Shown: positions 18,321 through 62,985 of the stretch, piece by piece | Position numbering within the stretch: the first letter of the stretch is position 1 | Layout: each line of letters opens with the position of its first letter | NCBI GenBank assembly: GCA_011037195.1 | Contig: JAAEAF010000213.1 | Location: 1 to 64,000, forward strand | Source: Triatoma infestans | Lineage: Eukaryota > Arthropoda > Insecta > Hemiptera > Reduviidae | DNA length: 64,000 bases | Direction: 5' to 3' | Position numbers and translations under genes: made by a program | Notes under the pieces: model-generated | What the model was told of the DNA's origin: nothing | The model's input: only the letters and a program-made list of their open reading frames with translations | Databases searched by the model: none

Positions 18321-18485
18321 AATTCTAAACTTGATTTTTCATAGAAATAAGTAGCCATGGTAATTTAGGCCAATCAGAAAGCTGAACTTATTATGTTGAC
18401 CACGCCCATATTTGGCACCTTCACTTCTACACTGTGATTGGCTAATTATTTATAGCTATTTCTATGAAAAATCTAGTTTAGAATT
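18321..18485. mobile_element. Small inverted-repeat element (MITE-like, about 165 bp)
   Basis: Arms of about 55 bp (18321-18377 and 18432-18485) begin AATTCTAAAC and GAATT-adjacent AAACTAGATT respectively. They share TTTTTCATAGAAATA and GCCAATCA. The middle is non-coding. A clear target-site duplication was not resolved. Confidence 0.6.
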
Positions 18486-32214: not shown

Positions 32215-32257
32215 CTGGTATTTGATCCGCTATAGCATGCATATTTATAGTTTTCTT

Positions 32258-32287
32258 GACCGGTTTCGGATTTTCATCCATCGTCAG
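32258..32287 (-). ncRNA. Hammerhead ribozyme-like motif
   Basis: On the minus strand CTGACGA is followed by a perfect 4-bp stem II closed by a GAAA tetraloop (GGAT/ATCC). GAAA, palindromic CCGGT and the cleavage C come next. All core positions of the minimal hammerhead are present. Confidence 0.6.
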
Positions 32288-33097
32288 AGTAGACTGAGTT
32301 CACTTCAACTTAATGTTTCTGTTACACTCACACTTATTGGTTGTATATATGTGAGGAGGTTATGAGGTTATGTTACTATGTGTGTGTGTTTAAATGACAA
32401 AGTGGAAATAATATAAATTATGATTAGACATTAGAAAATAGTGTATAATAAATAGCATGTTTTGGAGAATATTTTATAACTAAATTTTGATAGTGTTGTT
32501 AAATACACTCAGTGTTTTATCAAGTCATTTTTATTAGGGGAGGGGGCGATAAGTTATTTCAGAAGTAAACTGAAGAAATGCAATTGACTTGAAAGTTTAT
32601 GGACAGTCAAAAGCTAGTACAACTAATAAATAAATGTAAAATACAAGCAGGTTTAATACTAGAAAATATGTAAGTATGTTGATAAGTAAGAAGGTTGGCA
32701 GCAAACTGCAAATTGGAGATGATATTAAAATAAATGATAGAGGAAATCAAATATATTCGTTTTTACTTATCATGCTTATTTTTAAATGATATTAATTTAT
32801 GTTTAAATTACATTAAGAATATAATATTGAGAGAGATGTGGTGGTATTTGTTAAGGTATTTTTAATGGGACACGGTAGGAGAATTTAGTTATAAAATATT
32901 CTTCAAAACATGGTATTTATTGTACACTTTTTTCTAATGTCTAATCATTATTTATATTCATTCCACTTTTGTCATTAAACACAACACATAGTAACATAAC
33001 CTTATAACCTTCCTACATGTATACAACCAGCAAGTGTGAGTGTAACAGAAACATTGAAGTTGAAGTGAACCCTCTACATGAACTTGGTGAATTTACT

Positions 33098-33127
33098 CTG
33101 ACGATGGATGAAAATCCGAAACCGATC
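33098..33127 (+). ncRNA. Hammerhead ribozyme-like motif, slightly mutated
   Basis: Same core as at 32258-32287 but on the plus strand. Stem III reads CCGAT instead of CCGGT, which weakens its short palindrome. Confidence 0.5.
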
Positions 33128-33169
33128 AGGAAAATTATAAATATGCATGCTACGACGAATAAAATACCA

Positions 33170-33894
33170 GATTGGATTTTTTGTTTAGAAAATCAATGTA
33201 ATCAAGTATCTTAATAACTGCTAAAATACATTGTGTTCAATTTACGATCTCAATATAAATTTTCCTTCATCGCAGGAATGAACAAATAAAACATGAAAAT
33301 TTTAAAGTTCAATAATATCATTTTTAAGAAATACAAGCTTTAGAGATATATTGTAACTTGCCAACTTAATACTGATATGAATATTAATGACCATAAACAT
33401 TAATTTGGGCGATGACAATGGATACTTCAATGTTTGTTATTTTGCCTTATCTATGGTGTACACTCAACCACACTTGCATTTCAGTTTGAATATAGAATGG
33501 GTGTAGTTTGCATTCATTATTTTATATTATTCTATGTTAACAATACATTTGCCAGAATTATTATTTATTATTGCTTTGAAGAATATTTTTCACCGATTAT
33601 AAAGAATTAATTTGAAACTGAAAATAATTAATAATGAAAACTGTTATCATTTCAGCAAAAAAAAAAAACTGAAATTACAAAAATAAATAATTACAGTACA
33701 GGCAAGTGTTTCCATATTAAGACATTTTTGAATTAGTAGTTTTTATTTAATTTAGAATTTCTTTTCAAATTTTTTTTTTTTTTAGATTTTAGATTATACA
33801 ATTTTTTAATACTATACAGTTAAATATTATACAATATTTTTAGATTTTATTTTCAATAGATTTAACATAGATCTATAACACTTATTTGCAGACT
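33170..33894. other. No gene recognised
   Basis: AT-rich spacer with homopolymer runs and no recognisable motifs. Confidence 0.4.
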
Positions 33895-39208: not shown

Positions 39209-39368
39209 TTTTTTTTTCATCTATGGTCATTGGCGCCCGGAGCCTTCTCAGTGCACTGCCGGCCTCCGGACAGCGTTTTTCGTTACTGACAACACTTTTC
39301 ATCACCGGACGTAAGCTGTAGAGGCTCCCAATACGCTAACCACTTAGCTATTCCCTTCCCTAATATTA
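39209..39368 (-). repeat. tRNA-derived SINE (candidate)
   Basis: On the minus strand the head contains ATAGCTAAGTGGTTAGCG, a very good tRNA A-box. The body follows (CTCTACAGC, GTCCGGTGATG, GGAGGCCGGC, GAAGGCTCCGGGCGCC) and ends in an A-run. The B-box segment present at 36.3 kb is deleted here. Confidence 0.65.
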
Positions 39369-41539: not shown

Positions 41540-43440
41540 CCTTCTCAATAACCGACCTAAATTCAGTGTTACTTAAAGTTAAGGACAATAAAGCTCCCGG
41601 AAAGGACCGAATGCTTTCTGAATTTGTTAAGCATGCCCCAGCAAATTTTCTAAAAATGATATTAAATATTTTTAATAAAATATTTGAGACAGGAAATAGT
41701 TTTGAGAGTTTTAAGGAGTGTACAATATTTCCCTTATATAAAAAAAGGGAACAAAAATGATGTATGTAATTACAGAGGGTTTTCTTTCATAAACTCAATA
41801 ATTGGCAATACTCTGGATTACTTTTAAATATAGGATTCTAGAATTCACAAATGTAATGAAATAATAAGGGAATTCCAAGCCGGATTTCGTCAAAATTACT
41901 CAGCGGTGGACAATATCTTTAATTTAGTAAATCTGGCCAAATTAAGACTTCGGAAAAAAGACAAAAATTATACGCTTTCTTTGTTGACTTCACATCTGCT
42001 TTCGATAGTATTGATCGATACTCTATAATTTGTAAATTGTACGCACTCGGTCTTGCAATCAAAAAAATAATTAAGTCAATCAAAAATTTATTTTGTAATA
42101 TTAGTGCCAATGTTTGGTATAAGAACGGAATCTCTCAAAAGTCTACCTGTGTGGGTGTGAGACAGGGCTGGCTTCTTAACCCAACCCTTTTCTCACTCTG
42201 TATAAATGATTTAGAATTGTACTTGGATGGAGGTGTTTGTTTGCCTAGAGAGTAGAGGTAAAATAAAGCTATTTGCTAATCAGATGACATTGTTCTGATG
42301 GCGATAGACCTGATCTCTTTACAAATGATAATTAATTCGTTAGAACAGTATTGTTTATTGTGGGAATTTAAAGATAAACTTGGTCCAATCAAAGTTTATG
42401 GTGTTCAGGAATGGTGGTAGGGCGGCGGGTAATGAACAATGGTACTTGGGCAAGGATAGGATTGAGGTAGTGAATGAATACAGATATTTGGGTGTCAACC
42501 TCACGCCGACTCTCTCGATGAGCAAGCAGATTGCGGACGTGGTGAGTAAGTCTGGATTGGGTTTGAATACGATTGGCGACCGTTTATGGAAAATAATGAC
42601 GGTTTGCATTTCTTACTAAGCTGAGGGTTTTCAATTTTCTCAGTCGGGCAACGATGTGCTACGGGGCTCAGTTATGGGGCGGTGAAAAGTACGATAGGCT
42701 AGAGTGGCTGTTTCGGCTATTCATCAGGTCGCTATTCGGACTACCACAGTACACACCCATCTCCTTCTTATAAATTGTAACAAATTTAATGCCCATATTC
42801 ATATACACCTTAAAACTACGCTTCAATTATGTCCTAAAATTTTATTGCTTCCAGATCACAGACTACCAAAAGTATTAGCCACACAAGTAATTAAAAACAA
42901 AATATACTGTTTTAGGGAAATTATTACATTAAAAAATTTAATTTAAACATAGTATTGGACGGCTCTAATATTAATAACACAGAACTTGGAAGTGCAGTTT
43001 TAGTCTGATTAGAAAACATATTTACGATAGTATAACAGAACAAAACTTATACTAAACAAACTTAACTCACTTAGAACAGTTTCCGTTATATAAAGAGTTG
43101 ATATTTGACTTCCCCAACAATTACTTAACTGATACAACTTTACCACTAAGCAGCGTCCGATGGATTATAATTTGCAGAGAAGATTTAATAAATTTAAATT
43201 TCAAACACTATAAACAGAAAAATATTAACTGTGAGCTTTGTGGAGATATGGAGCGGGAGGATTTGTTTCATTTCCTGGCTTCTGCCCAGCTCTGGCAGCT
43301 ATACGACATTGTTATTTTCAATATGAATATTTAAGTAGCAATGATTTGTTACAGTATATTAATGGTAAGGATTGGGCTGCACTGATTAATTTTTGTAAAG
43401 CGGCATACAATCTCAGAGCCAAGACTTGACAGGTTAGATC
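41540..43440 (+). pseudogene. Non-LTR reverse transcriptase (Jockey/CR1-like, possibly Kiri-like), heavily decayed
   Basis: A long ORF2 remnant is readable across several frames. It opens with DNKAPGKDRMLSEFVKHAP and FKECTIFPLYKK (41566-41760), the usual RT entry. Then come EFQAGFRQNYSAVDNI and the palm region around 41990 with stops, followed by GVRQGWLLNPTLFSLCINDLE (42037-42255). The catalytic YADD has decayed to FANQ. After the core are KFMVFRNGG and VNEYRYLGVNLTP (42380-42619). The end shows CREDLINLNFKHYK and the zinc-binding CELCGDMEREDLFHFLA (43098-43334). At least five frame changes. The remaining 3' UTR cannot be bounded. Confidence 0.7.
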
Positions 43441-44614
43441 CTGAAGGGAGCTGGGGCACGCCCTTTTTGCCTAGGGCCTCTAATACCTTCTGGGAACAGG
43501 GTGCAAATAGCATTATGGAGCAGGATTGATGGACGCTTGGCTTTCTGGGAGATGTTTTGGTTATATATAAAGTGAATGAACTCGCTTCGCACGTAATATT
43601 TTTGTTATGCGGGTTGAGAGAGTTGTATGTGGTACACTAATTACAGCAGTTTGTATTGTGGGCCACCTTTATTTTGTCTGGCTATATGGGTGCGTGCGAC
43701 TTTGTCGGCCTGCCCTTGTCTCGGAACACTGTTCGTTGAGAGTTGCCTCACATCAGTAAATTTTTATTTTTTTTTTTTTTGTTTATTATAATTTTTCTTT
43801 TTTTTTTTTCTATTACAATGCTTTGATACTGTTTATCTTTGAATTCAGTTTCTTTCTGTTGGTAGAAGTTTATTTTTTTTTATTATTATTATTATCATTA
43901 TGGTTGTGTCTTTTTATTTTTAATTAACCAGCTTTTAGTTTTTTATTTCATTTAACTCCATTCGCACAGTTTAGTTTAATAAGGTGTGACTCCCTCAGAT
44001 GGTGATTACCATGAGGTGATGTCTTTATATATATATATATATTTTTTTTACACAATTGTAAACAAGAGAAAATTTGTATTCATATATAAACTAAAGACTT
44101 TTATGATTACAAAATAATCTTCAAGAAACTTTAATGAAACAACAAATAAATGAAATAATCCTGTAACATGAGAATTATCTCCTAAGCTACTAAGCCGTTG
44201 AAATCACCCTCTGTGAAAGATCCGTGAACTCATCCAGAGATGTGGCTTTCGAAAACAGATCTAGCATTTTTCTCCTAATAGCTAATCTGCAAAGTCTTTG
44301 ATTCAATTAGATTTTAATTCAAAGAATATTTTATTTTTAACGCAGTTGAGGCGTATGGTGCGGTTCTGAATTCGATTCCCTAACCTTGGTTTATATTTCA
44401 TGGTAGAAACATGAAAAATTTAGAGAAGTATGTTCTTTATAGGGCTTGATCATAGGCCATTGTATGTAAACATTCCTGAAAAAATTAGCGTATTTTATTT
44501 TCAACTCATTTTTCGACTTCTTGATCTGCTTCTTTATACAATAAACGCGAATATTGAGCAAATTGTCAAATGATCAAATGAGTCATAACATATTGCCCTT
44601 AGACATTTTCTTCT
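43441..44614. other. Probable 3' UTR remnant, then unassigned sequence with TA microsatellite
   Basis: The first few hundred bases are less AT-rich and may be the UTR of the preceding element. T-rich simple sequence follows at 43760-43930 and a TA run at about 44026-44042. No coding motifs. Confidence 0.4.
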
Positions 44615-44761
44615 TAGGATCCTCTACAGCTTACTGTCCGGTGATGGACAGAGTAGTGTGTAACGAGAGAACACTGTCCGGAGGCCGGCACTGAGAAGGC
44701 TCCGGGCGCCAATAACCACAGCTGTTGACGTGCCTTAAATTAAAAAAAAGAAAAAAAAAAA
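44615..44761 (+). repeat. SINE copy, 5'-truncated
   Basis: CTCTACAGCTTACTGTCCGG, the GGAGGCCGGCACTGAGAAGG block and GGCGCCAATAACC match the minus-strand copy at 39.2 kb. The end is an A-rich tail (44736-44761). Confidence 0.65.
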
Positions 44762-46078
44762 TCAAGGCGATGCATAAACTAAATACAAAATTTTTACCTG
44801 TCAATGCTGGTCAGAACAAAAGTTATACTAAGAGATGTTCTTAGGGTTTTCAATTTCTTCTCTACAATTTAGAGAAAAAATTAGGCCACCGAAATACCAA
44901 ATATCCAGATTTTTATGTGAGGCAAGTTTCATTAAAAAATCTCCAGCGGTTTTAGCAGACAGATTGATATAAATTGCAAATTAACCTCCAATTGTCTTGA
45001 AATGGGCCAGTGTATGAATCGTAAGGGAATAAGTACAAAAATTTGAAATGGACCGACAGGATTATTGTTTTATTTATAAAATAATCAACAAAATTTTGCA
45101 TTTAAAATTAATTCCCTAGAGGGCTCTATTATTATTTTCATCCCAGCGCTCTTTGTAACCTAAATCCAGTTCCGTCACATAAGTTTTTAATTTTTTTAAA
45201 TTCATACTCGTAGGTATGAATTTAAAAAACTTAAATTTGTGTAAGTTCAAATACATATAATCAAAAGGTATATGAATTGCTATGTTTGTCAACTAATACA
45301 GTGAATAAATGTAAAAGAGAAGGATCCGTATCTAGTCTCTGTAGGAGTTGATTATTTTGTTAAATCAAATTAACAACATTCAAACGATAGAGTGAATGGA
45401 ATATTAGACACAGTAGCGGATATCAACAGGATTCTCAACTTCAAATTAACTTTTAACATTATGATTTTAGAATTTTTCTCCATAATTTCTCGAATTACAA
45501 GTAAATAATGAATGTATGATAAATGTAATTGTAATTACAGTGTGGATGCAAAGTTCTATGCGAACTTAAAATACATCCATGAATGGAAAAGTTGCATTAG
45601 ATGGTTCCATTAGATCAGAAAGAAAGCAAACTGTACCGGCAAACCTTCACACAAGCTATACAGCATATCTGGAGTTCTCGCTTCTTTAATGAATTCACTA
45701 TTTTCCAAGAATTTAGCAAATTCATTAGCGCAGTTTAAGTGTTTATCACCTCCTGTCAAACGATATAGCAATTAAAATACATATCCATTGTTACACCATG
45801 ACAAATACCTAAAAAATAAATTTATCGAGATGATAATATTGGTCAAACAAATAGAAAAAAAGACAAACACATCTAGATTCTATCGTAGTTGAATTAACAA
45901 GTTATCCTTTCTTAACAGTTTGCTTTCTATTTCTATTATTCAAATTTTGATTTAACTAGCAGTTCATAACTATTGTTTGTCACAAGCCCTCAAATGAACT
46001 AATAAATAGGCCAAAATTCAGTTGCAGTAAATGTTACACTTCCACCATTTACATGAACGTTGAAATAAGATAAGGTAA
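44762..46078. other. No gene recognised; contains a 16-bp perfect hairpin
   Basis: AT-rich. 45192-45207 and 45214-45229 are exact reverse complements with a 6-nt loop. Confidence 0.4.
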
Positions 46079-46441
46079 TTATGTACAAGCGTGCCCCCAA
46101 GATGGACGACAACTAGCTACAGTAACCTGCTCACTCCCACTCTTATTACACTCATTTCTGATTTACTAATCATTCACATTTCTTTATTTATTTCAATTTG
46201 CATTCATTTTAAAAAATAGACTAAATGTAAGTAAAAACTACGAAACAAATCATAGTTTAACTTCAAACATTGTCCCAAGAAATTGTAGGTTTGAATTAGC
46301 AAAGACTGGTTAATTAATGTGTCATTTAAAATACTTGAATTCAGTGATGAATATTAAACAAGAGGGTTTATATGTGATTGTTCATGTGAGGCGGTTACTG
46401 TAGCTAGTTGTCGTCCATCTTGGGGGCACCCTTGTACATAA
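46079..46441. mobile_element. MITE with 49-bp terminal inverted repeats
   Basis: 46079-46127 and 46393-46441 are reverse complements with a single mismatch in 49 bp. Both ends start TTATGTACAAG and continue through GTGCCCCCAAGATGG. The 265-bp middle is AT-rich and non-coding. Near-identity of the ends suggests a recent insertion. The outermost TTA/TAA may be part of the target site; the superfamily is not assigned. Confidence 0.8.
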
Positions 46442-46773
46442 CATTATAACAATAAATTCACGACAAAGAAAGCAACAGGGTTAAGTAATTAGTTACCGAT
46501 TTTCTGAGAAGTCCCTTTTTCCATTTGAAAGGTCAAGAAAGATAAAAGTTTATTCAATATGATAATATATTATGATGAATTTTTCTATATTGAAAGCAAA
46601 TATCTTAAGTGTCTGATTAATAGTAAAGTCAATTAAGAAAAAATATTTCCAATATTTTTATATCATTTACAGAATTGGGAATGAAAGATATCTCTATTAT
46701 TTACAAAATGATTAAATAACTCACCAGTTTCTGGTATTTTGTCCGTCGTAGCATGCATATTTCTTATATTCCT

Positions 46774-46803
46774 GACCGGTTTCGGATTTTCATCCATCAT
46801 CAG
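46774..46803 (-). ncRNA. Hammerhead ribozyme-like motif, consensus core
   Basis: On the minus strand: exact CTGATGA, stem II GGAT/ATCC with GAAA loop, GAAA, palindromic CCGGT and the cleavage C. It is the best-preserved example in the window. Confidence 0.65.
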
Positions 46804-47597
46804 AGCAAATGTATAAGGTTCTTGTTGAGAGTTCACCTCAACGCATTGTTCCCTCGACACTTGTTGGTTTGTTGATCTATTATGGAGGTTATAAGGCTGT
46901 GTGTGTGTGTGTGTGTGTGTTTAAATGACAAAATGGAATTATTATAAATTATGATTGGACATTAGATAATAGTGCATGTTTTGAAGGATACTTTATAACT
47001 AAATTTTAATTGTAGTTTAAGTATGCTCCGTGTTTTATCAAGTTATTTTTATTAGGGGGGCCTAATAATAATAATAATAGATAAAGTTTGAAGACGATAA
47101 AATTGGAGATGATATTAAAATAATAGAGAAAATCGAATTTATTCTTTTTTTATTTATCATGTTTATTTATAAATGATATTAATTTATGTTTAAATTACGT
47201 TAAGAATATGTTGAGAGAAATGTTAAATAGCATTCTTTAAGGAATTTTTAATAGGGGGCGATAGGAAATTTTGGAAGTATAATATGCAAATATTCTGTAT
47301 TTTAAACGGAGGAAGAAGAAAATTTGGTTTATAGGCTAGTATTTAATAAGAGGTGCCTGCATGGTGCATTTTTTTTTTGTTTGTATATTTGTGAACATAT
47401 ATTTATCTGTTTAGGTGTGGGTAATGACCTTAAAGAGTATGTCTGAGTTATAGTTTATTTGATCATTCATTATATTTTGGTTGATAGTCTTGTGTTTGTA
47501 TATTTTTATTTTTTCGAGAATGTCATTCTCTTTCTTTTGTGGCTTGGTATAATAGAACCATCATTTTTTTTCTATACTTTGTAGTTCGTGTTGTTCT

Positions 47598-49025: not shown

Positions 49026-49489
49026 TGTTAATATGACGGAAGCAAGAAGCAGAATAGTTTAGAGACAAAACTGGACAATTTGCATTTAAAAAAGGAAACA
49101 AGAAACCGTTAGAGTACGTCAGTATACTTGGTAAATCCTTTGTAATTCCCCCTTCCCCCCTCGGGAGTAAGCAAAATATATATAAAAGGCAGTTTTTTTA
49201 CTTAAAAAGACGGTCGTATTCACACAGTCGTTTACAGCAGTTCGACAGTCGTACAAATTATAGGACACCTGTTTCACCTTTCTGTTTTTGCAATTCTGCC
49301 GCCGTGATAAGAAGCCTACGCAATCTTCACACGCTCTCTAATCATATATATATTGGACTTATCATTGTTTTTCTCATTCTCAATTAGATTCTCGCTTAAT
49401 TCTCATTTTAATCTCTGTATGTATAAGAACTTCCTATTTGAAATAAATTCATTTTTTAAAAAGTAAATTCTTAGTAAAATTTACATAAT
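49026..49489 (+). repeat. 5' LTR of the errantivirus-like element
   Basis: It runs from TGTTAATATGACGG to TTACATAAT just before the primer site. The last about 190 bp (from CCGTGATAAG) recur at 58925-59112. AATAAA at about 49440 is a possible poly(A) signal. The exact first base (AGTG or TG) is uncertain. Confidence 0.7.
49179..49188 (+). promoter_or_regulatory. Probable TATA box of the LTR promoter
   Basis: TATATAAAAG lies in the middle of the LTR, upstream of the repeated R-U5-like part. Confidence 0.5.
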
Positions 49490-49506
49490 TGGCGCAGTCG
49501 GTAGGA
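49490..49506 (+). other. Primer-binding site (tRNA-Ser type)
   Basis: TGGCGCAGTCGGTAGGA immediately after the LTR matches the site known from 17.6/297-type errantiviruses. Confidence 0.75.
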
Positions 49507-50079
49507 CCACACCCGAAAACGAAATAGTTGTCGAGGTTGCGAAGCAAACAACTCGTTTATACAACATTTCTGTGGTTTTTAAACTTTTATTTCGGAATGC
49601 ACATCCTTCAACATCAAGCGGACCACATACAAACTTGAACCCAGAGAATCAACAGCCCGCAGAGCGAAAGCCAGAGAATTAACAGCCGTAGAGCGAGTCC
49701 CAGAGAATCAACAGCCCGCAGAGCGAGTGCCACCGCAAATGGAAATTCAGCAAAACTAATTCTAATATTATTGTGAGTAACAATTATTGTTATTAAATAA
49801 TTTAAAAGAAAAGAATATAAATTCAAAAAATAATTTCGAAATAATTATAAAAATTTTTATAAATTTAAATAATTGAAGAAACTAATAGAATTATTTAAAT
49901 AGTAATTTTGAATATCGAAAAGTAAATAACAAAATTTTTGTTTTGGAATTTCAACTCAGTAAGTATTTTATTTTTAATTTAATCTTTCATTTTAATTTTA
50001 TTTATTTCATTCTGAAATTATATCTTTGATTAATTGTTTACTTTATATACAATTTACATTCACATATACACACACCAAA

Positions 50080-51118
50080 ATGGCAAGCATGGGAAAACTA
50101 AAACTTATACTAGACTCAATCCCAACATACGACGGAAATCCGAAAACATTAACACAATTTATCCTCAATATTGACGAAATTAATACAATATTAAACACCT
50201 CAACACCAGCCATAACACCAATACAAAAACAAATAGTCTTTTTAAATATAAAGAATAAGATAGTAGGAATAGCAAACGAAAACCTTAGGAACATTAGATT
50301 CACCACCTGGGAAGAATTAAAGATACATTTGATAAACAGCTTCGGAGACAGACAAGAACCCGCTAGTTTAATGTTAGAAATATTGAAAAGAAACCCTTCC
50401 AAAAATGCATTTAATACCCTAAAAGAAATTAAAGAAAAATTTAATTTATTTAGAGCTAAGTAAACCTACTTGACGGCTCCAATCAACAAAAGGAATATTT
50501 AATACAATTCCAAGAACTAATCGTAACAACTAATTTCATAATAGCACTGAGAGACCCATTAAGGAATAACTTAGCCACCCGAAATCCAAAAACGCTTGTA
50601 GAAGTAGAACAATTGCTAATAAACGATTTTCAATATTTACAGAACTCAGATAATAACAATAAAATAGTAAACAGATTACCTAACTTACCACCCACACGGT
50701 TCCCTGGAACATCATTCCCCAGACAACCAATTCTCGTAAAACCCAATAATCGTTTATACAATAGTAACTATCAACAACAAAAAACAATAAGACCCAACAT
50801 AGTAACCTCAACAATGCGACAACAACAAAATTTACCTTCACAAACTTCACAGACCAGACAACAAATAACACAACCTAGAGGACCGAATAATTATTTTACG
50901 CAACAAAATGCGCAATACCAACACAACCAACCGATGAACTACATAGCGGAAGAAATATTCAATAACGAAGATATTATTGACGATAACCCCTTAGAAAAAT
51001 TCGACAATTTCAACCATGACTACCCCTTACAAATAGCACAAAATCCCGAAGAAATTGAAACAGAAGAAAACAATTCTTTTTTAGAGATAGTTCCTTGCAA
51101 CATGAGGAAGAAATCCTA
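50080..51118 (+). pseudogene. Errantivirus-like Gag, one frameshift
   Basis: The first Met in good context is at 50080 (MASMGKLKLILDSIP, following an in-frame GTG/ATG-free leader). The first frame holds an errantivirus-type capsid region: a YDGNPKTLTQFILNIDEI segment, then WEELKIHLINSFGDRQ and the EILKRNPSKNAFNTLKEI segment. It ends at 50463. A frame change there leads into QKEYLIQFQELIVTTNF and EVEQLLINDFQYLQNSD, continuing to 51118. The C-terminal half is rich in Asn and Gln and has no zinc knuckle, which is usual for this group. It would assemble particles and bind RNA. Confidence 0.7.
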
Positions 51119-51129
51119 AATAATTACTG

Positions 51130-52712
51130 CGATTCGAAACTTCCTTTTTTAAATAACAATGACTACTACATCCTAATTGACACCGGATTTCTATAAACTT
51201 AATCAGCAAAAATTACGTACAGAGAAACAAATCAAAATTTAAAATTTTTAATGAACAATTCACATTCACCACAGCTACAGGCAAACACACCGGAAACGGA
51301 TATGTTATGATCAAAATCCAAAACAAAAACATCAAACTGTATCTACACGACTTCCACAAACAATTTAACTTACTAGTAGGACTACCCGCGATAATTGAAT
51401 TAAAGGTGAACATAAATTTCGGAAACAACACTGTAAAAATATTAGACAAACAATACGAACGTAAATACTTCCAGAACCCAACACAAAACGTCAACGCAAC
51501 TGAACCCATTGAAATTAAAATTCGCGCAAACCATCTACACGAAGAAGAAAAGAAAGAATTTTTAAAATTATCAAAGAATTTAACGACATCATTCCTAAAG
51601 AAATTCAAGAACTTACACATACACACGCCATCAAACACGAAATAAAAACCACGGATGCTACAATAAGAAATTCGAAGCCAAGTTACACAACTCCTAGACA
51701 ACAAAATCACACAACCGTCATATTCACCATGGTCATCCCCAGCGTGGATTGTACCAAAAAAATAAGACGCCTCCGGTAAATAAAAATTTAGAATGATAAT
51801 TGATTACCGCAAATTAAATTCAAAAACAATAGATGAAAAATTCCCAGTACCTAATATAACTGACGTACTAGACAAATTAGGAAGAAACACATACTATACA
51901 ACTATAGACTTATCCAGCGGTTTCTACCAAATTGAAATGGATGACAATTCGATCCAAAAAGCAGCCTTTAACACTGACGAAGGACATTTTGAATTTAGGC
52001 GCATGCCATTCGGTTTAAAGAACGCTTCCGCCACATTCCAACGTCTGATGAACTTCGTATTAAAAGAACACATAAATAAAATATGTTTAGTCTATCTAGA
52101 CGACATCATCATATTAGGGACATCACTACAAGAACATATACAAAACATAAGGACAATATTCACTGAATTAAGAAAAAATAATCTAAAAGTTCAACTAGAC
52201 AAATCCGAATTTCTACACAAAGAAGTAACTTATTTAGGCCATATTGTATCAGTAGAAGGTGTTAAACCTGATCCTGATAAGGTAAAAGCAGTACAAGGCT
52301 TCCCTATCCCCAAGACGCCAAAAGAAATAAAAACATATCTCGGACTCCTGGGATATTACAGAAAATTTATACCGAATTTTGCAGAACTAACAAAACCTCT
52401 AACAAAATGCCTAAAAAAGGGAAACAAAATAGATCTGACAGACAAAAACTATTGAGACGCCTCTGAGAAAAGTAAAACCCTTCTAACTAATGCCCCAATC
52501 TTACAGTACCCAGACTTTTCAAAACAATTTACATTAACTACAGACGCCAGTAATTACGCCCTAGGCACTATCCTTAGTCAAAACATAGACGGCAAAGACC
52601 TACCAATAGCCTATGCTAGCGGAACACTAAATACTCACGAAACAAACTACTCAACAACAGAAAAAGAACTCTTAATATTGTGTAGTCGACAAAACAGAAA
52701 TTTTTAACTTCA
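51130..52712 (+). pseudogene. Errantivirus-like Pol: protease, RT and partial RNase H, broken
   Basis: The protease active site ILIDTG is at about 51170-51187, followed at once by a frame break. The following protease and linker sequence is open at 51307-51645. RT is open from 51793: [19 protein letters not shown], then the palm aspartate segment [29 protein letters not shown] and the catalytic [25 protein letters not shown] and [17 protein letters not shown] end the connection. A stop follows at 52453. RNase H begins as [15 protein letters not shown] and reaches [14 protein letters not shown], then breaks off at about 52685, so its second half is deleted before integrase. Confidence 0.8.
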
Positions 52713-52849
52713 TAGTAAAAGACTACCTCGTCCCAAAAATAAATTATTACTGCCTAATAGACAAAGACTTAATATTAACCACAAACGAAATATTAACAAA
52801 CACAATTTACTTAGGACTCTTACAAACTCATCCAATGCGAAAACATTCT

Positions 52850-53695
52850 AACCGATATTGAAGACCCAAACGAGCAACTCTATACTATCAGCAACTATCA
52901 TTTAGGAAAAACCAATCACAGAGATATCATGGAAACTTACCTAAAACTAAAACGGAAATACTATTGGCCCAAACTACATCATGATATACAAAAATACATT
53001 AACAATTGCGAAATCTGTCAAATTAACAAATACGAGAGAAATCCATACAAAATCAATGGCATTCTTACGGAAACCCCAAAATACCCTTTCGATAATCTAC
53101 ACATAGATAATTAACCCTAGAAAATGAAAAATACTTAACCATAGTAGATGCATTTTCTAAATTCGCACAAATTTACCCCCTAAAGACATTGAGCGCTATA
53201 GAAATCACAGAAAAACTGCTACAATAATTTAGCCAGTACCAAATCCCCAATAAAATAATACACAGACTGCGGAACAAAACTTAATAATAATCTTTTAAGA
53301 GAACTTTTAAAACTATACAAAATAAAACCCCACATGACATGTCTTGACAAACCAAAAAGCAACGGAATAATAGAACACTTTCATTCTACGTTAATTGAAC
53401 ATTTACGGATAATAAACCAAAATAAAGAATTTGAAAAAACAAAACTAACAAACAAATTACATTTCGCTATCCTAGCATACAACGATTCAATAAACTCCAC
53501 CACAAAATTCACACCAGTAGAAATCTTATATGGTGCTGACAGAGACAAAAACATTTTTAACACAGGATTCACTATGGACGACTATCTAACAAACCATACA
53601 AACAGACTCAAAATATTACAGAACGAAATTAACAAAATTATAGCGATAGAGAAAAACAAAAGATTTCTAAAACAAGACAAATGTAAAACACCACC
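52850..53695 (+). pseudogene. Errantivirus-like integrase, broken
   Basis: The zinc-binding HHCC domain is readable as YHLGKTNHRDIMETYL, then KYYWPKLHHDIQKYINNCEI with its CxxC. The catalytic core starts at the HID motif near 53098 (stop right after it) and continues as LTIVDAFSKFAQIYP. The second Asp is near 53265 in a TDCGT segment with a further break. The Glu lies in KSNGIIEHFHSTLIEHLR (about 53350-53400). From 53334 the frame is open to 53756, but the last 20 residues belong to another repeat. Integrase would insert the cDNA; here it is inactive. Confidence 0.75.
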
Positions 53696-53698
53696 AGC

Positions 53699-53800
53699 AG
53701 CGCCCGCTCTAGCGGTTACGTCGCCCCGGAAAAAAAGACAAATTGCCGCCCCTTAGAATATATACATTAGCGATCAGAAGTTTGGGATCAGTTAAAAAAC
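53699..53800 (+). repeat. 100-bp direct repeat, left copy
   Basis: It is similar to 56966-57066: GCTCTAGCGGT, AATTGCCGCCCCTT, ATATATxCA, CGATCAGAAGTTTG, GATCAGT. It marks the right edge of the integrase remnant. Confidence 0.7.
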
Positions 53801-54816
53801 TGGGCCTTGAACTACTTCATTATTGTCGATCGTGTCCAATTGAAATTCTTAAAGTTGCTCTTAAATCTGCCACGGCAAGTCCCCAATAGTTTCGTTCGCT
53901 GGTACTTGAATGACGGCAAGTGAAAACCAATATTTTTAATAAATCTATAAGATTCTGGCTGAAGATTTTATCGATGTAAAGCAGCTCACCTCTGAAGATA
54001 TGCTATAGAAGACTTGTGAAGCTTTTGGATGGTTCTGACATTCCTTTTAACTGGGTGGCTCTTGTGAGCGAAATGCTTTTTTCTATAGGAGCGCAGGACA
54101 TCTGGGAGGCGCAGCATGCGGTCGTGGTCTCTAATAACTTAAAAAATCTTTCTCTAAACTGACATCAATGAAGTACTTAACTCTTCATATAACATCCACT
54201 ATAGATTGATATGTCCCTTGGCTAATGGTAGTTCATATGTAAATATTTGGTGCAATATCATTAAAACCAGATTGACAGCTCAAATTAGAGTAGCTAGTGA
54301 TTGTCACCCCAGGATTTTTTATAATGGAATAGCCCATTTATTTGATCCTAAAAGAGTTGCTTTACTTGTGCGGAGGGCAAAAATGATATTATGCACTTTA
54401 TTTTCGAATGCCCTTATTATAAATGTTTGAGAAGGAGGTTGTTAAATAGGTATTTACCTTCAAACAGTACTTATGTTTTTGATAACTTACTAGATATAGA
54501 AAATAAAGAAAAGTTAAACCGCTTATTTTATTTTATCTCTGAGGCTTTGCAGGAAAGGTATACATAGGTTTGTTTGTAAAGGTATTATTTAATACCTACG
54601 AGGAAATCCCTCAAACTCCTTCCCTAAAATAATTTGTATAAATGAATAAAGTATTTTTAAATCATTGTTACTATCTACTTTATTAATCAAGTATTTAATA
54701 TTATTTTATTACTTTGAAGATTAAGCTGTAATGTTTGTAAAGTTGGTATTTTTTGTCCAGCTTTCAGCAGAGGTTAATCTCCTGCTATAGAAATGTATAG
54801 TTTCTTTAGGCAATAA
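53801..54816 (+). pseudogene. Non-LTR element C-terminal fragment with AATA tail
   Basis: Broken frames contain YRRLVKLLDGSDIPFNWVAL, SEMLFSIGAQDIWEAQHAVV, then an open stretch (54206-54430) with NIIKTRLTAQIRVASD. The zinc-binding tail reads NDIMHFIFECPYYKC in another frame, followed by DIENKEKLNRLFYFISEALQ. The 3' end is CAATAAATAAATAAAT at 54801-54816. That is the same tail type as at 16080. The polymerase core is absent. Confidence 0.55.
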
Positions 54817-55394
54817 ATAAATAAATATTGAATGAAATTTTTCAAGAAATGTTTCAAGCATTGGACCAGCCATTTCAAGAGATTTTGAAGCGTTTTAAAA
54901 AATATATCAAATAAGTACAATATTCAATCAAATACCAACAAATGAAATTCCCGTAAATTTTATTGACAAGATTTAGATAAAAGTTCTTGAACTGTATGTT
55001 GGTAGTTACATATAAATGCTTATAAAAATAATGATTATATAGGATGGATTGCTATTTGAATCTATCCTTCAATAGTCTTAAATTTCTCATTTTAACATTG
55101 TTATTACATACGATAATATTAAGATTCGCATCCCTCTATAGCTTCTGGCTGAAAAACAAATGTAAAAAATCTGAACCCTCAAATGAAAAAGAAAGAAGGG
55201 AAAAATATCAGATCAAGCATTATTCCAGAAAAATATCTTGGCAAATAATATGCCAAGAATTATCTTAATAATTTGCGCAAGAAATATAATATAGAAAAAA
55301 GATAAATCAATATTTGAATTTTATTAATATATATTAATTTTCTAGTTTAAAAATGATGTAATGATGAAAATGATGATTTAATTATAATGTACAT
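54817..55394. other. No gene recognised
   Basis: AT-rich. An open frame of 74 codons at 55044-55268 has no known motifs. Confidence 0.4.
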
Positions 55395-55545
55395 CTAAGT
55401 AATTTTTTCAGTTTTTGTGATTTTCTCCATAAAAACACAGACGAATTTTATTAAATTAGGTATATTAACTATAAAGTTTGTCGATTACAATTTTGAAAAC
55501 TGGAGTAAGAGAAACTTGTGTGAGTGTTTCACACCAGATTTTTTT
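55395..55545 (+). repeat. HINE-like repeat, 3' end
   Basis: TTTTTGTGATTTTCTCC, then GGAGTAAGAGAAACTTGTGTGA and GTTTCACACCAGATTTTTTT: the well-preserved last 150 bp of the family. Confidence 0.75.
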
Positions 55546-55548
55546 TGT

Positions 55549-56965
55549 TTTCTAATTAATAAAGTAAGTAATTAAAATTAGTATATTTGTAGTTATAAAC
55601 ATGGCCACCAGATAACAACACCTACTGAGAAATCAATTGTATTTATGGTTATATAGTTTGTCACTAGGTGTCACTACTTCCAAAGATTTTTTAGGAGTCC
55701 ATTGAAACTATTAAAAAAACTTTTTACATCATAGGATGGCGCTGTGATCGGGTGGCGAATTTTGGAACTACGAGTACAATTCTGTATATCTAGAAGCTTA
55801 TGCTTTCTAGCGGCAATTACTTGAACTACTACAAATTCTAGATTAAGTAAGTGCTGTTACCTAGCGGTGAATTCAGAAACTTAATTTTATTCGTTTATAA
55901 CTATTTTTCTTTTTTATTTCAACTAAAATGTAAAATTTGAATTTTTTTTGTTTGTTTTATAAGAATACAGTCCTAATTTTTTAGTATAAACTTCATCTAC
56001 AACAATTACATTCTTAAAGCAGTTAGAAAAAAACAAAAATTTTATATTTGTTCCTTAGCTCTATCTTTTTTTATGTCTTTTATTAATTATTCAATTATTT
56101 GTTAAAGGGGACTAATTGTGACTAAAATTAATTAAGTTATTTTCTCTCTTATTAAGTTACATGTATTTATTATATTTAATACCGATTTAAAATATTCTTC
56201 CAAATAATTGTGAAGGTGTCTATCCTGAACAAATTGTCCTGCAAATTGCCGTCGCAAGCATTGCTATTGGATTGATAGAGAGCTTGCTATATCATACAAT
56301 GCAATTTTATTTAGGTAAATAGTATAATCTTCATCTCCATTATTTATCTGTAATACATGTCTACTAACCGTTATTTTCAAATGAATTATACAATAGAGGA
56401 ATGAAGGGTGATTGTTTTATACCAAATTTCTCTTCCCTAAATCGCGGCAGTAGACTAAATAAATTTAGCGATGTCAAATCTAGATTATGAGGGAAAATGC
56501 AGTCTTTGTCAACAGAGCATCATTTTGATTAGGAACATAATTTTTTTCTTGTACAACCTTTATTTGAATCTTATTTTTCGCATTATTTGTTTGTCTCAAA
56601 AGTTTTATTTTCGAGACTTCATCAATCATCAGTTATTTGTACATTAGAGAAAAGCATATTGCTTATCAGTTATATAAGTGATACTTTAGAGAAAAGCGTA
56701 TTGCTTCTGTTCCTCTAGAAAAATGTGGCAAGCACAAGTGTTAAGAATTTATGTGTAGATAGTATTCAACGTTTAAAGAAAATCGTTGCAGCCAATTTCG
56801 AGAAAATTACGAAAAAGTGAAAAAAGAAATTCAATAAATTCGTCTATCGGATGGATTTTGCCATGTGTTCAATCCAAAAAGTAAATTCTGGCAAATTGAA
56901 TTAATTAACTGGTTTTGTTCTTAATTTGTTTGCAATGTTAAGCCTTTGCACTTCTATGGCTAGTT
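55549..56965. other. No gene recognised
   Basis: AT-rich sequence with several CTAGCGGT/GTGGCG-type phrases but no coding motif. Confidence 0.4.
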
Positions 56966-57066
56966 CAGCGCTCGCTCTAGCGGTCACTTAGCTCCGGACA
57001 AAAAGACCAATTGCCGCCCCTTCATATATATGCACTACCGATCAGAAGTTTGTGATCAGTAAAAAA
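56966..57066 (+). repeat. 100-bp direct repeat, right copy
   Basis: Same orientation as 53699-53800 and about 3.2 kb from it. Confidence 0.7.
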
Positions 57067-57224
57067 ATTTAGTTATTTACTAAAATTCTTTAAAGAAAAA
57101 TATGGTTACATTTTAATAAGAATTTTCCAGTCACGTGATTTATGCATAATACCTCCCCCATTTAAATGACACCTTTTAAAATAAATATTTTATTAACATA
57201 ATATACCTCGAAGGATACCTTTAT

Positions 57225-57520
57225 ACGCCCGGAGCCCTTCTGCGGTTTCCCAGGAGCCTCATTCACGCTTCTATCTAGGAATGGATAGAAGACCAGCATC
57301 TGCGATGGTGGGAAAGAACGCCAGGGCAGAGGCAGGCTAAATTCTTTGTTAAGACATTTACCTACATTCACCAGGGAACTACTGAGTCATAGCCGAAGAG
57401 ATATAAGGATAATAGTGGGTCTACTAACAGGGCATTGCAGGCGGCTGAATAGGCACATACACCATTTACTACAAGCAGAAAACTCGTTATGCCGATTCTG
57501 CAGGGCCGAGGAGGAAACGG
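57225..57520 (+). pseudogene. Zinc-binding C-terminus of a LOA/I-like ORF2 (fragment)
   Basis: One frame reads FTRELLSHSRRDIRIIVGLL, then TGHCRRLNRHIHHLLQAENS and LCRFCRAEEETV before a stop. This is the same domain as VGFLTGHCGLRRHL...CRVCETEEETP in the element at 6580-7143, but clearly a different family. It is a short dead fragment within the material separating pol from env. Confidence 0.6.
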
Positions 57521-57950
57521 TTTAAAAAATATGGTGGTCATGAAAATTTACATCGCTCCGGGAGACCAAAATCACCAACTACAGGTTAGGATAAGTTCAC
57601 TATTTTATGGAATAAAAGAAACAGACGACTCACAGCTCCAAAAATCAGAGGGGAAGTTATTAAAACAAGTTCAAGGCCAATTTCTGTCTCAACTGTTCAA
57701 AGGTGACTTTGTCAAGCGAACTTAATACGAAGAGTTGCAACGCTGAATCCATTATTAAAGGGTGCAAACAAGAAGAAACGTTCAGAGTGGGAAATACAAA
57801 GACTTCTCAGTGAAAGGTTGGAGGAACCTTTCATCAGCTCAGAAAAACTACATCTACAATGCATAATACCCACCGTTATGCACAGAGAGGGCTCGGTCAT
57901 TTTGCAAATAGAAACATTAATTAACGAAAATATATCCTGGCAAAACACTT
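57521..57950 (+). other. Unassigned sequence before env
   Basis: A readable but unassigned stretch (KKKRSEWEIQRLLSERLEEP, LINENISWQNT) lies directly before the env homology. It could be the UTR of the preceding fragment or a diverged part of env. Confidence 0.3.
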
Positions 57951-58890
57951 AATTATCAAAGACATAATAAACCAGCTTGTACTACTGACTATTAACCTAA
58001 TCGAAATAATAAGCGAAATAGAAACTAGCCTAGCCTTTTGTAATCTGAACCAAATACACAGATCTACTATCACTACTAATTACACACCAAATCACTAGCC
58101 ATTGTAAACTAAAAAACGGAGAAATAAGATACTTACTTGAGATCCCAGTTTATGAAACAAATTATAAAACCAATAAATTGTTACAAATAACACCAATTCC
58201 TATTATTAATAATAAAGAAAGGCTTATACTAGACGAAAATAAAGAATTATTAATAAAAAAGGATAATAGTCTATTAATGACTAATAAATATATTAAAGTT
58301 GAAGAAAAGTATTTTTGTAAAACAAACTTCATTGAAGTAGACAAATGTTTAAATAATATAATTATAAATAATAATAATAAAGAATGTAAATATCATAAGA
58401 TAAAAATAGAGAATTTGTCATAATAAAAATAGAGAATGCTAACATTGTAATAATTGTAGCAAAAGAAATGAAGAGCCTAAATATTCAATGCAAGAATTTT
58501 AATAAATATAAACAATTTATTGGAATCTATAAATTTAGAAGAGACAAAAACTGTATTATTAATAATTATCATTTAGAAACTTATAACGTAGCCTCTAAGG
58601 AAATAATTTTTGAAAATATTAACTTCACTTTAAAGAATAACCAATTTAGCAATAAGACAATTGATTTAAAACAAATCAATAAACAAAATATTGTAATTAG
58701 AGAAATACCTAGATTAGAAACTTTAGATTACAGTAATAATAATCATACTATTGTAAATACTTTTATCATAATAATTGTCATTCTTGTTATCTGTATAATT
58801 GTAATCAAAAAATACTTAAATTGTATAAAACAGAAAATAGAAAATTTTGAATTGCAGGAAACACCAACAGGAGTTCCCACGACGCCCTGA
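57951..58890 (+). pseudogene. Errantivirus-like envelope protein, C-terminal half, broken
   Basis: It starts with IIKDIINQLVLLTINLIEII and EIETSLAFCNLNQIHRSTI, a heptad-rich segment typical of the fusion-protein-like Env of insect errantiviruses. After stops it is open at 58178-58423 (Asn/Lys-rich ectodomain with paired cysteines) and at 58468-58890. The latter has a membrane anchor near its C-terminus (TFIIIIVILVICIIVI) and a short Lys-rich tail. The N-terminal part, including the signal peptide and cleavage site region, is not seen. Non-functional. Confidence 0.65.
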
Positions 58891-58914
58891 GTTCCATTAT
58901 GCTACTCTTCGCGT

Positions 58915-59112
58915 GATAATTCCATTACCGTGATAAGAAACCCACGCAATCTTCACACGCTCTCTAATCATATATATATTGGACTTATCATTGTTTTTCT
59001 CATTCTCCATTAGATTCTCGCTTAATTCTCATTTTAATCAAATGTATGATGTGAACGTTCCTATTTGAAATAAATTCATTATTCAAAAAGTAAATTCTTA
59101 GTAAAATTTACA
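58915..59112 (+). repeat. 3' LTR of the errantivirus-like element, 5'-truncated
   Basis: From CCGTGATAAGAAACC to TTACATAAT it matches the last about 190 bp of the 5' LTR. The differences include a small insertion/substitution block near 59040. The promoter half and polypurine tract are gone. Confidence 0.75.
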
Positions 59113-60364
59113 TAATTTACACCAGTCATTCAAAACGTCACACTGGTCATTTTTAAGATCAGTGCCAGTAAGTGCTGGAGTCTAACATTTGAGTTAAAAA
59201 TCAATTTATCAATTTAGCTTGAGGTAGATTTAACTGCAAGAGTTTTGTGTAATTATAAGCTTATAAGAATTAAATTGTAAATTATAATCTTTTAAAGTAT
59301 CTAAATTCATTTATAGTCAACATATTTATTGTAAACAAATGGTGTCCTTTTTCACTATTTCTTAAACTTCTCTCTAAGGCATTAAGCGTTCGTGAACCCG
59401 GTCTACAACCCAAAAACATACATCAACTGCAACTCAACCAACAACACAACAGCGGACTGATTTTACAGTTATTACAGCTTGGCAGAAGCTTTTTTAGTAG
59501 GTAAATTGATTTTGCCGCTTATTATTTTGTATCAAGTGCATAGAAGGGGGGGTGTCGAATGTTTGTTTATCTTTGTAGTCGGATACTATCAGTACAGAAA
59601 GTGAAGTCGTTCTTCACTAATTTCCTGTTCGGTCAGTGAGTAAGAATATTTTCCCGGTTTTCCCAATGTTTGGGTTACCGTCAGGTCATTCCTTCCTTCC
59701 AAAACTTATATCCAGTCACCATCTCTCATCCCTCTTCCCGCCAGCAGCTTCTCAGTTTCTTTCTCCATCTTCTCGCTGGCCTACTTCTCTTCCTGCTTCT
59801 CTGAGGGATTCATGCTTTCAACATTTTCGGCCGTCTTCCTTCCGGCATTCTTCTGAAGTGTCCATACCACACAAATTTTTTTCCTTTTAATCCTCTCTTC
59901 CAGTGTTTATTCGTTAGCACGAACACATCTTAATCCCATTAACTAACTTCCATTTATATCTCCTTCCTTTTTATTTGATACACCTCTCACATTTCAATTT
60001 CCTAAAGTTAAAGTCCTTTTCCTTTGTTCTTTGCCGTTTTCCATTCTATCGTCCAGTATTACTTTTTTAGCAGATGATTTTTTAACGCATTTGGGAAGTC
60101 GGACCACCGTGCAACCCCCAGAAATTCCGAAAGGGACCAATCCTTAGATAGGTTGTCTTCACATTCCAAAAAATTTCAACATTCCGAGACGGATAAATGA
60201 AAAGATGAATGGGGCTAGCCAAAATAATTTAAACCCGGAAATAAACTAATAGCATCATGCAGATGTAGGAAACGGGTAGTAAAATTGTTTATAGAATGCG
60301 TGGGCGAATAGCAAGCTATTCTACACTTTTAGCAATATCATCAAGGTAGTTGAATTAGGGAATA
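59113..60364. other. No gene recognised
   Basis: An 84-codon Ser/Pro/Phe-rich open frame at 59636-59890 lies in a CT-rich stretch and is probably incidental. No repeat shared with the rest of the window was noticed. Confidence 0.4.
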
Positions 60365-60456
60365 ATATAGGTTTGTAAACAGTACCATGTCGCTTGAACT
60401 GGTGAGGTACATTACTAATTGCCTGTTTACTTTAATATTCAAAACACTTATGTTAC

Positions 60457-60634
60457 CTTTGTTTTGTTTTCATTTTCCCTCCTAGCGCTCATAGGCAGGA
60501 AAGTGGATCATGTTTAGCTCCATAATATTCTGTCATTTCGGCTATTGTAATTGCGAAGCAGAATCTCATCATATAAGAGACCAATAGACAAATACAGCAT
60601 TCTAATGATACCACCCACCTTTGCAGTACGCATC
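60457..60634 (-). pseudogene. SLC17-like transporter exon, left-arm copy (frameshifted)
   Basis: On the minus strand the exon is bounded by an acceptor (GTGTTTTCATAG) and a donor (AAAG before GTAACA). It is 178 nt, one shorter than the right-arm copy. It reads IGCVLQRWVVSLECCICLLV, then RFCFAITIAEM and TEYYGAKHDPLSC before a stop caused by the one-base loss. The AITIAEM phrase is closer to the usual SLC17 AITEM than the right copy is. The missing base means it cannot be spliced into a normal protein. Confidence 0.55.
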
Positions 60635-61149
60635 CTATGAAAACACTTTATATAAACATCCTAAGGTTAGATGAAGAACATATCTTAATACAGTAACTTA
60701 CTGAAAAGTAGATATGGAAACTTTATGAAAAGTAAATCTTCCAAGCACTTTAAACAACTTTTTAACATTATTAACAATTAAAAAATTAATTTGTTAATTA
60801 AATAATTATAGTTAATAATTACATGATTGATCATGCAAAAATAAGGGCATTCATGTAAGTCATTCATACTTTACCTAGGAAACGTATGAAAAGTTAGACT
60901 TTTTTTTTTATAAATGCAACGTGAGCAATGTTAATATTGAAAATAATTATACCGTTGCTAAGTGATACAAAATACAAACAAAACCAATAGAAATTAAAAA
61001 CAACAAATTCTCTACTATATTGTCCACTTTAATTCATTCCTACGCCATGAATTCGGCTACTCAGCCATTCTGCGCAGTGCGACCCAGTATAAAAGAACTT
61101 ACGCTGTTCTGGAGATTGATGTTGTTTGTTTAACTGGATATCCATATTC

Positions 61150-61308
61150 AACGTTTCGGACACGTCCGGTGTTCTTCCTCAGGAACTATATAAACAAAAA
61201 ATACAGAAATCCAAAAAAAAATTCCTGTAGAATTTTCTGTGTTTCTGTATTTTGTGTTTATGTAGTTCCTGAGGAAGGACACCAAAGATGTCCGAAACGT
61301 CGAATAAA
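61150..61308. repeat. Palindrome with hammerhead-like cores (Penelope-type terminus, third family)
   Basis: Arms at about 61150-61217 and 61238-61308 are reverse complements. Each has CTGAGGA, a stem II hairpin (GGACA/TGTCC in the right arm), GAAA and the palindromic ACGT. This parallels the palindromic hammerhead arms at 16.8-17.2 kb but with different sequence. It lies in the spacer of the large inverted repeat. Confidence 0.5.
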
Positions 61309-61668
61309 ATTTTAAAAATGAAAAGTTTCTTCTATGGCCCCAGCCAACTAATTTTTTGCTTGTTTATTAACAACGGCCATGTTTTTATATTGTTTATTAG
61401 TTTTATTTTGTTAGTTGGTTTATAAACTAGTGTTTTTATTACAAAAAAAAAATGTTTATTACATTTTTTTTATAGCGCTACAGCTGATCTTAATAGATAA
61501 TAGTAATGATTCCTAAATCTAATGAAAAAACAATTTTTATTGGATTATTTTGCTTAATTTCTAAATCTACATGACAAAAAAACTGAATCATTGTATTTTC
61601 TGGATACTCACTTTAAGAGACAAGTCAATCCAAACTATTGTGATTCTCTTGTTACTTACCTTTCACTA

Positions 61669-61770
61669 AATTGTAATTGTAATTGTTGATGAATTGATTT
61701 ACATTGTAATCGTCTAAGAATTGATTTACATTGTAATTGTTAATGACTTGATACATTGTAATTGTCGATG
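61669..61770. repeat. Minisatellite, unit about 29-30 bp, about 3 copies
   Basis: Diverged units of the type ATTGATTTACATTGTAATTG separated by a short variable part. Confidence 0.7.
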
Positions 61771-62232
61771 CAGTTTTATTCAACAAATGAAGGAGATTTT
61801 TATGTTGTTAATTCGTCCAGAGGAGAACACCTCTTTATCTAATTGTTAATCTCTTTCTATTTCTCGTGGATAATTATAGAAACTTTCACGATAATCATAA
61901 CCAGTTGCTTTTTTTAGTTATTCATGTTGTATATCTAAATAAATGAATAACTAATTTTAAATTGCTCACATTATATTTATAAAAAAGCTAACTTTTCATA
62001 CGTTTCCTTGGTAAAATCTTAATAACTTATGTAAACTCACTTATTTTGGCATGACCAATTCATGTGATTATTAGCTATGCTATATTTATTTAATTAACAA
62101 ATTAATTTTTTGATCTTGTGTTTGGAAGAATTTACTTTTCATGAAGTTTCCACATCTACTTTTCAGTAAGTTACTGTTTTAAGATTATGTTCTTCAGCTA
62201 ATTAGGATGTTTATATAAAGTGTTTTTTATAG

Positions 62233-62411
62233 GATGTGTGCCGCAAAGATGGGTGGTATCAACACAATGCTGTATTTGTCTATTGGTCTCTTATATGATG
62301 AGATTCTGCTTAGCAATTACAATAACCGTAATGACAGATATTCATGGAGCTAAACATGATCCACTTTCTTGCCCTTATGAGGTCAAGGGTGAAAATGAAA
62401 ATACAACAAAG
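62233..62411 (+). CDS. SLC17-like transporter exon (first membrane segment), right-arm copy
   Basis: A 179-nt exon lies between a good acceptor (TGTTTTTTATAG, ending at 62232) and a donor (AAAG|GTAACG). In the frame entering with the last two bases of a codon it reads GCVPQRWVV, then CLLVSYMMRFCLAITITVMT, a His/Asp-rich loop and a CPYE segment, ending in phase 0. This is the pattern of the N-terminal exon of SLC17-type anion transporters (putative inorganic phosphate cotransporters): a PQR motif, first transmembrane helix ending in R-LAIT-, then a large extracellular loop with cysteines. No neighbouring exons are visible here. It may be a duplicated exon or part of an intron-rich gene extending outside. 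Confidence 0.55.
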
Positions 62412-62510
62412 GTAACGTAACTTGTTTTGAATATTAAGGTAAACGGGCAATTAGTAATGTACCTCACAAACTCAAGCGACATGGTATCATTTACAAACCT
62501 ATAATAATAA

Positions 62511-62756
62511 TAACAATAAGACTTTAATTCCAAAATATACATATATGTAATTAAAATTGTAAATTAAATTAAATTTCTATAAAAGTGAATGTAATAAAAC
62601 AAACTATTAATTATATGTACGTAAGTATATAAACTAAACAACAAAATAACTAATAATAAATCAAATTTTTACTTTTTAATAAAATAATGAAAATTCTATT
62701 TTCTATAAATACAAATTTAAATGAATATTTTTTGCAGATTTATTAATCTTTGGAAA
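62511..62756. other. AT-rich spacer
   Basis: Between the large inverted repeat and the RT-tail fragment. Nothing recognised. Confidence 0.4.
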
Positions 62757-62985
62757 CTAGGCCCATTTCTGGGCAAAGGATTTTTCCAGCGTTTTCAAAA
62801 ACTTCTCTATTCTTTTCCTGTTAATGCCAATTTCTATCCGTAGTTCGTCAGTCCATCTTAGATATTGTCGTCCTCTTTTCATTATTTTATCAGTATACAG
62901 TCTGTCACTCTTGTTGTTCTTCTGTTATGAGTTAGTCCTGCCCACTTCCACTTTGTTCTCTGGACAATATCCATCAACCTAAAGA
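62757..62985 (-). pseudogene. Tail of a non-LTR endonuclease-reverse transcriptase
   Basis: On the minus strand: DIVQRTKWKWAGLTHNRR, then after a frame change KRGRQYLRWTDELRIEIGIN and FWKTLEKSFAQKWA before the stop at 62757. This is the 'KWKWAGH.aR..D.RW / kRgrp..RW.DeI / A.dR..W..leeafa.kW' ending of RTE-like and related elements. It is only about 75 codons and frameshifted. Confidence 0.6.

Follow-up and report, generated by a model that had tools for sequence, protein, structure and literature searches.

Why does an exon of an SLC17-type transporter stand twice, in opposite orientation, in a 2.1-kb inverted repeat of Triatoma infestans DNA? The window, i.e. the whole stretch analysed, comprises the first 64,000 nt of one contig (C205:1-64000) from a 941-Mb assembly. 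An earlier note had proposed either a foldback element that captured a host exon or an inverted duplication. We conclude that the repeat probably (at roughly three chances in four) arose by inverted partial duplication within a cluster of SLC17 genes; its left arm would be a degenerate copy of a gene-A-like 5' end, gene A being the gene that begins in the right arm.

Self-alignment placed the opposite arms at 60363-60934 (minus strand) and 61957-62506 (plus strand) in one alignment of 585 columns (82% identity with gaps counted, E 4e-143). The two arms of about 550 bp, each with an SLC17 exon between AG and GT, are therefore as the earlier note had described them, and the exon reading agreed as well: the right copy is 179 nt long and open in one frame, and the left copy is 178 nt long and runs through a frameshift into a TGA. 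Over 540 aligned bases the arms are 87.4% identical (K2P 0.139), and they differ by 44 transitions, 24 transversions and 12 gap events. Their outer ends are sharp; inward, weaker similarity reaches 61027 on the left and 61866 on the right. A palindromic assembly artefact is an unlikely source of the arms, because it would give near-identical arms, whereas these have diverged. In the listed titles and abstract openings of the literature on SLC17 and insect inverted repeats, foldback or gene-capture elements, and partial or inverted duplications, the locus is not named.

The SLC17 identity of the exon copies was examined with a profile. A fly probe gave 787 matches, and the best listed of them, 120 SLC17 proteins of insects, make up this profile. 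Among 2053 window ORFs (at least 20 residues, stop to stop), the profile matched at E<1 only the two exon copies, with E-values of 9.4e-8 and 2.5e-5; the next-best ORF had E=1. Both peptides align to the first transmembrane segment of the profile. In a control for which 4000 shuffles were submitted, the best shuffles reached 5.4 and 6.4 bits, against 26.6 and 19.5 bits for the real peptides; these values come from 2711 listed rows, the two real peptides among them. The translated similarity to SLC17 on which the earlier note depended is thus present, as judged from both profile and shuffles. The exon alone had no match in NCBIfam, PDB or Pfam and no candidate with three common 5-residue words in a protein database that includes insect SLC17 proteins; its 7 pattern matches in viral_contigs and 25 in genome_contigs yielded no confirmed one.

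The search for the exon's parent gene ended at the repeat itself. The arm alignment, the profile matches and the exon joins indicate that the right arm (61957-62506, plus strand) is the 5' end of an intact SLC17-type gene, gene A. Coding exon 1 (62141-62165) encodes MKFPHLLF plus 1 nt and is followed by the donor GTAAGT, intron 1 (62166-62232) is 67 nt long, and coding exon 2 (62233-62411, 179 nt, flanked by TATAG and GTAACG) encodes the first transmembrane segment. Exons 3-6 were located by profile and exon joins on the same strand beyond the window, at contig positions 69247-69789, 91550-91835, 94642-94880 and 108399-108545. The window had cut this long-intron gene after its second exon, so that a normal gene start resembled an orphan exon. 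Joined, the six exons give a 1419-nt CDS of 472 residues with no internal stop, with AG ahead of exons 2-6 and GT behind exons 1-5; the joins of gene A, as those of the paralogous gene C, were placed by hand from splice signals. The protein belongs to SLC17 by similarity over most of its length, both to sialin in PDB (E 6.8e-65, residues 13-458 of 472 aligned) and, exon by exon, to the 120-protein profile. VGLUT2 and VGLUT3 chains also match, and the closest solved chains are sialin 9ayb, VGLUT2 8sbe and VGLUT3 9wix. The NCBIfam model TIGR00894 matches with E 3.8e-88 and 296.1 bits, under its curated cut-off of 626.45, and gene A is therefore not assigned to that model's subfamily.

The tiny first exon was found by comparing four SLC17 loci (genes A, B, C and D). 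ATG-to-donor pieces of the right phase were collected upstream of exon 2, giving 18, 11, 8 and 16 candidates in A, B, C and D, respectively. Each of the six pairwise comparisons contained one above-threshold match, always MKFPHLLF or MKFPHLIF followed by GTAAGT, and exon and donor are present in all four loci. Another candidate for exon 1, at 44597-44762, has relatives that adjoin a conserved upstream block in C and D; it was dropped as a repeat, since related copies lie at 39218 and 16570. If it were exon 1, intron 1 would include the left arm; the role of exon 1 goes instead to the conserved ATG exon at 62141.

Gene A is not alone. The profile was also run on the window together with 100 kb more of C205 and 66 kb of a second contig, C3806; 19 of the 7295 ORFs matched at E<=0.05 and, the left arm and two stray pieces aside, the matches are ordered along the protein. 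Across the genome, 13 places with exon-2-like sequence were found at E<=0.1. Five are on C205 (60.5, 62.2, 127.4, 175.3 and 216.8 kb) and two on C3806; the other six, elsewhere, are weaker. An internal stop is found at only one of the 13, the left arm. Gene C (C3806, minus strand) reads as 469 residues without an internal stop once joined, the model of gene B is approximate, as its exon 4/5 join has no clean GT/AG pair, and gene D was read for exons 1-2 only, up to the contig end. This contig carries a tandem cluster of SLC17-type (sialin/phosphate-cotransporter-like) genes. A duplicate pair named sialin-like and phosphate-cotransporter in a pea aphid duplication study (PMC7475028) agrees with SLC17 duplication in insects. 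The stray exon pieces lie at C205:92792-92902 (inside gene A; weak, E 0.023) and 119626-119727 (after gene A), which suggests that fragmentary copies are common in the cluster.

The left arm (60363-60934, minus strand) has counterparts of both exons and of the intron between them, of the sequence upstream of exon 1 and of 95 bp of intron 2. Its counterpart of exon 1 (60702-60726) has ATA for ATG, so that the translation starts with I, and retains the donor GTAAGT. The counterpart of exon 2 (60457-60634, 178 nt) is flanked by CATAG and GTAACA and holds the frameshift that leads to TGA. With start and frame lost and no further exon detected in the window, the left arm has the features of a pseudogene fragment. 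We take the right arm to be the original position and the left arm the copy, judging from flanking similarity: around the right arm, similarity to the paralogues passes the arm ends, upstream to 61490 with gene C (68% identity) and downstream to 62964 with gene D (where a break of about 570 bp lies in D), whereas the outer flank of the left arm (59901-60362) has no other match in the C205 and C3806 stretches at E<=1e-4. The inverted-duplication half of the earlier alternative is upheld in this form, with the left arm as a decayed inverted copy.

The duplication would have proceeded as follows. A gene-A-like 5' end would have supplied a piece some 550-640 bp long, which reached from upstream sequence over the tiny exon 1, the 67-nt intron and exon 2 to about 95 bp into intron 2 and whose copy came to lie, inverted, about 1 kb upstream. 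This copy has lost both start codon and frame, and is probably drifting as a pseudogene fragment. It presumably arose when DNA repair or template switching duplicated part of a gene, not from a whole inverted gene, and is probably without function. Inverted partial duplications and pseudogene fragments in tandem clusters are the same in being intron-bearing, DNA-level copies beside the parent that lost start and frame and show near-neutral differences, and we found no feature here that distinguishes this case from them. The donor may have been another member of the cluster, because the grouping of left and right arms in the best tree of five loci is weakly supported (62/63; FastTree 0.85); C and D pair at 100/99.

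The differences between the arms are near-neutral. Over 55 codons, right and left differ by 4 synonymous and 13 non-synonymous changes (dN/dS 0.96); for whole genes the ratio is 0.53 between A and C, 0.46 between A and B, and 0.46 between C and B, the model of B being approximate. Polarised by exons 1-2 of B, C and D, the right branch carries 5 non-synonymous and 2 synonymous changes and the left branch 6 and 2, with 2 ambiguous. As the right branch is mostly amino-acid changing, it shows by itself no visible constraint in exons 1-2. Identity between the arms (84.3% in the exon versus 89.1% and 88.4% in the introns; P 0.13) and indels (1 in 179 exon columns versus 11 in 406 flanking columns; P 0.12) do not differ significantly. 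The exon stayed open in 9-39% of neutral simulation runs, depending on the rates used; openness alone therefore proves little, and it is the full gene A that carries the proof. The case that the gene of the right arm is live rests on the intact gene, its splice sites and its start codon as read from the DNA, and not on the count of substitutions on its branch.

A much less likely origin is that a complete SLC17 gene once stood here in inverted, head-to-head orientation and that the left arm is all that remains of it, deletion and transposon insertion having removed the other exons. The divergence between left and right arms on the tree (about 0.15 per site) is not far below that between the right arm and D (about 0.22), so that the left arm would be almost as old as the whole-gene copies, and many transposon-like frames, read by eye, lie to the left of it. 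What speaks against a lost whole gene is that the 60 kb of window to the left of the left arm holds, on either strand, no other SLC17 exon at E<1 among its ORFs, and that the similarity of the arms stops at the same point of intron 2 at which a LINE-like fragment starts in the right arm.

The arms might also be a hairpin-RNA locus, from which a transcript crossing both arms would give long dsRNA and siRNAs against the genes of the SLC17 cluster; we consider this very improbable. The locus is an inverted repeat with gene-derived arms, as such loci are. In the predicted fold of a 2147-nt read-through transcript, 84% of left-arm positions on the plus strand and 90% of right-arm positions on the minus strand are paired with the other arm, the longest helix being 46 bp, and the arm alignment contains 45 perfect 21-nt windows in its 585 columns. 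There is also a precedent: in PMC10317233, Dsim-hp58 of D. simulans is an inverted fragment of CG17385 exon 2, one gene away from CG17385. The present repeat resembles hp58 in being an inverted repeat from an exon-2 fragment near the parent gene, and differs in that one arm is the parent-type gene itself. However, gene A has its start codon (62141) within the right arm and downstream of the left one, so that its normal mRNA need not include the left arm, and a hairpin RNA would need a transcript starting to the left of it. Furthermore, the two copies face away from each other, G:U-compatible differences show no strand bias (21 versus 23 sites), and the exon is no better conserved between the arms than the introns. 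Equally improbable is a nascent cis-regulator, in which occasional read-through from transposon promoters on the left side would produce dsRNA over gene A's start codon and the exon for its first transmembrane segment, with siRNAs that would also hit the tandem paralogues.

The capture of an SLC17 exon by a foldback or Pack-type transposon, the other half of the earlier alternative, was not borne out and can practically be dismissed: palindromes are common in the window, the outer arm ends are sharp and AATAAT stands just outside both arms, but the right arm consists of coding exons 1-2 of an intact six-exon gene and runs on into that gene, and, among the best 40 of 3512 candidates scored in the 941-Mb assembly, the arms have matches at the SLC17 loci of C205 and C3806 and no dispersed copies. 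AATAAT was considered as a 6-bp target-site duplication, a reading that we do not favour. The AAT run by the right arm belongs to a LINE-like fragment, read by eye as a LINE 3' end with an AAT-type tail (62509-62964, minus strand), which lies in intron 2 and abuts the arm; the run is better read as LINE tail because the tail sits at the same point in D, while it is absent in C. In PMC3169594, the Tm1 Mutator/Foldback elements of root-knot nematodes occur dispersed, with composite TIRs and, in most copies, with 9-bp target duplications; the present repeat shares with Tm1 the long inverted repeats flanking a spacer, and none of those three features was found here. A candidate exon-capturing transposon is thereby removed. 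What remains is a natural case of a 5' gene fragment, with the start-codon region and a short intron, reversed beside its parent, with three paralogous loci to compare.

Several other features were seen in the cluster. The LINE-like fragment common to A and D (62509-62964; C3806 about 3739-4820) and missing in C conflicts with the pairing of C and D in the tree; a possible reason is gene conversion among members of the cluster. An antisense open frame (MNDQKATGYDYPEGFYKYLREIERD...) lies just upstream of SLC17 exon 2 at C3806 about 42800-43060 (plus strand); it is open in gene C and broken in A and D, and is found degenerate at about 61600-61940 of the window (minus strand).

The spacer between the arms extends over 60935-61956, and its part 61490-61956 is gene A's own upstream sequence, collinear with paralogue C. 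It also contains a palindromic interspersed repeat (61145-61306, motif CCTGAGGAAG...GAAACGTCG), which alone within the 2.1-kb unit has dispersed copies by the dozen. In the genome search (best 40 of 3512 candidates scored), it accounts for about 95 of the 107 rows, although many places give two rows each. About a dozen contigs have two copies in opposite orientation no more than about 1 kb apart. Rfam gave no match over the window at the gathering threshold; at E<=5 over 60300-62600 it gave 12 matches, all below gathering scores and mostly on the palindrome, which were taken as chance. A hammerhead ribozyme, considered for the palindrome on account of its motif, was dropped, as hammerhead is absent from both Rfam results.

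The repeat at 44597-44762 has relatives at 39218-39331, at 16570-16631 (inverted) and at C3806:6329-6487 and 43196-43367, with a CTCCGGAGGCCGGCAGTGCACTGAGAAGG core and an A-rich end, and relatives stand just upstream of SLC17 genes C and D. By eye we read it as a tRNA-derived SINE, because two of the five aligned copies have a tRNA-like head; ARAGORN found no tRNA genes in the window. The region 49302-59039 is endogenous-retrovirus-like, with gag-, RT-, integrase- and envelope-like open pieces (by eye) and direct repeats of 97% identity over 112 nt. The segments 6012-6475 and 15524-16004 are 99% identical direct repeats, as of an LTR element, and between them Gag/RT-like frames and a LINE-like frame set on the minus strand are seen by eye. 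Further palindromes lie at 32213-33172, 16842-17219, 46079-46441 and 18307-18499. That at 32213-33172 may represent a foldback-type repeat family, since one of its arms recurs inverted at 46730-47005 (77%).
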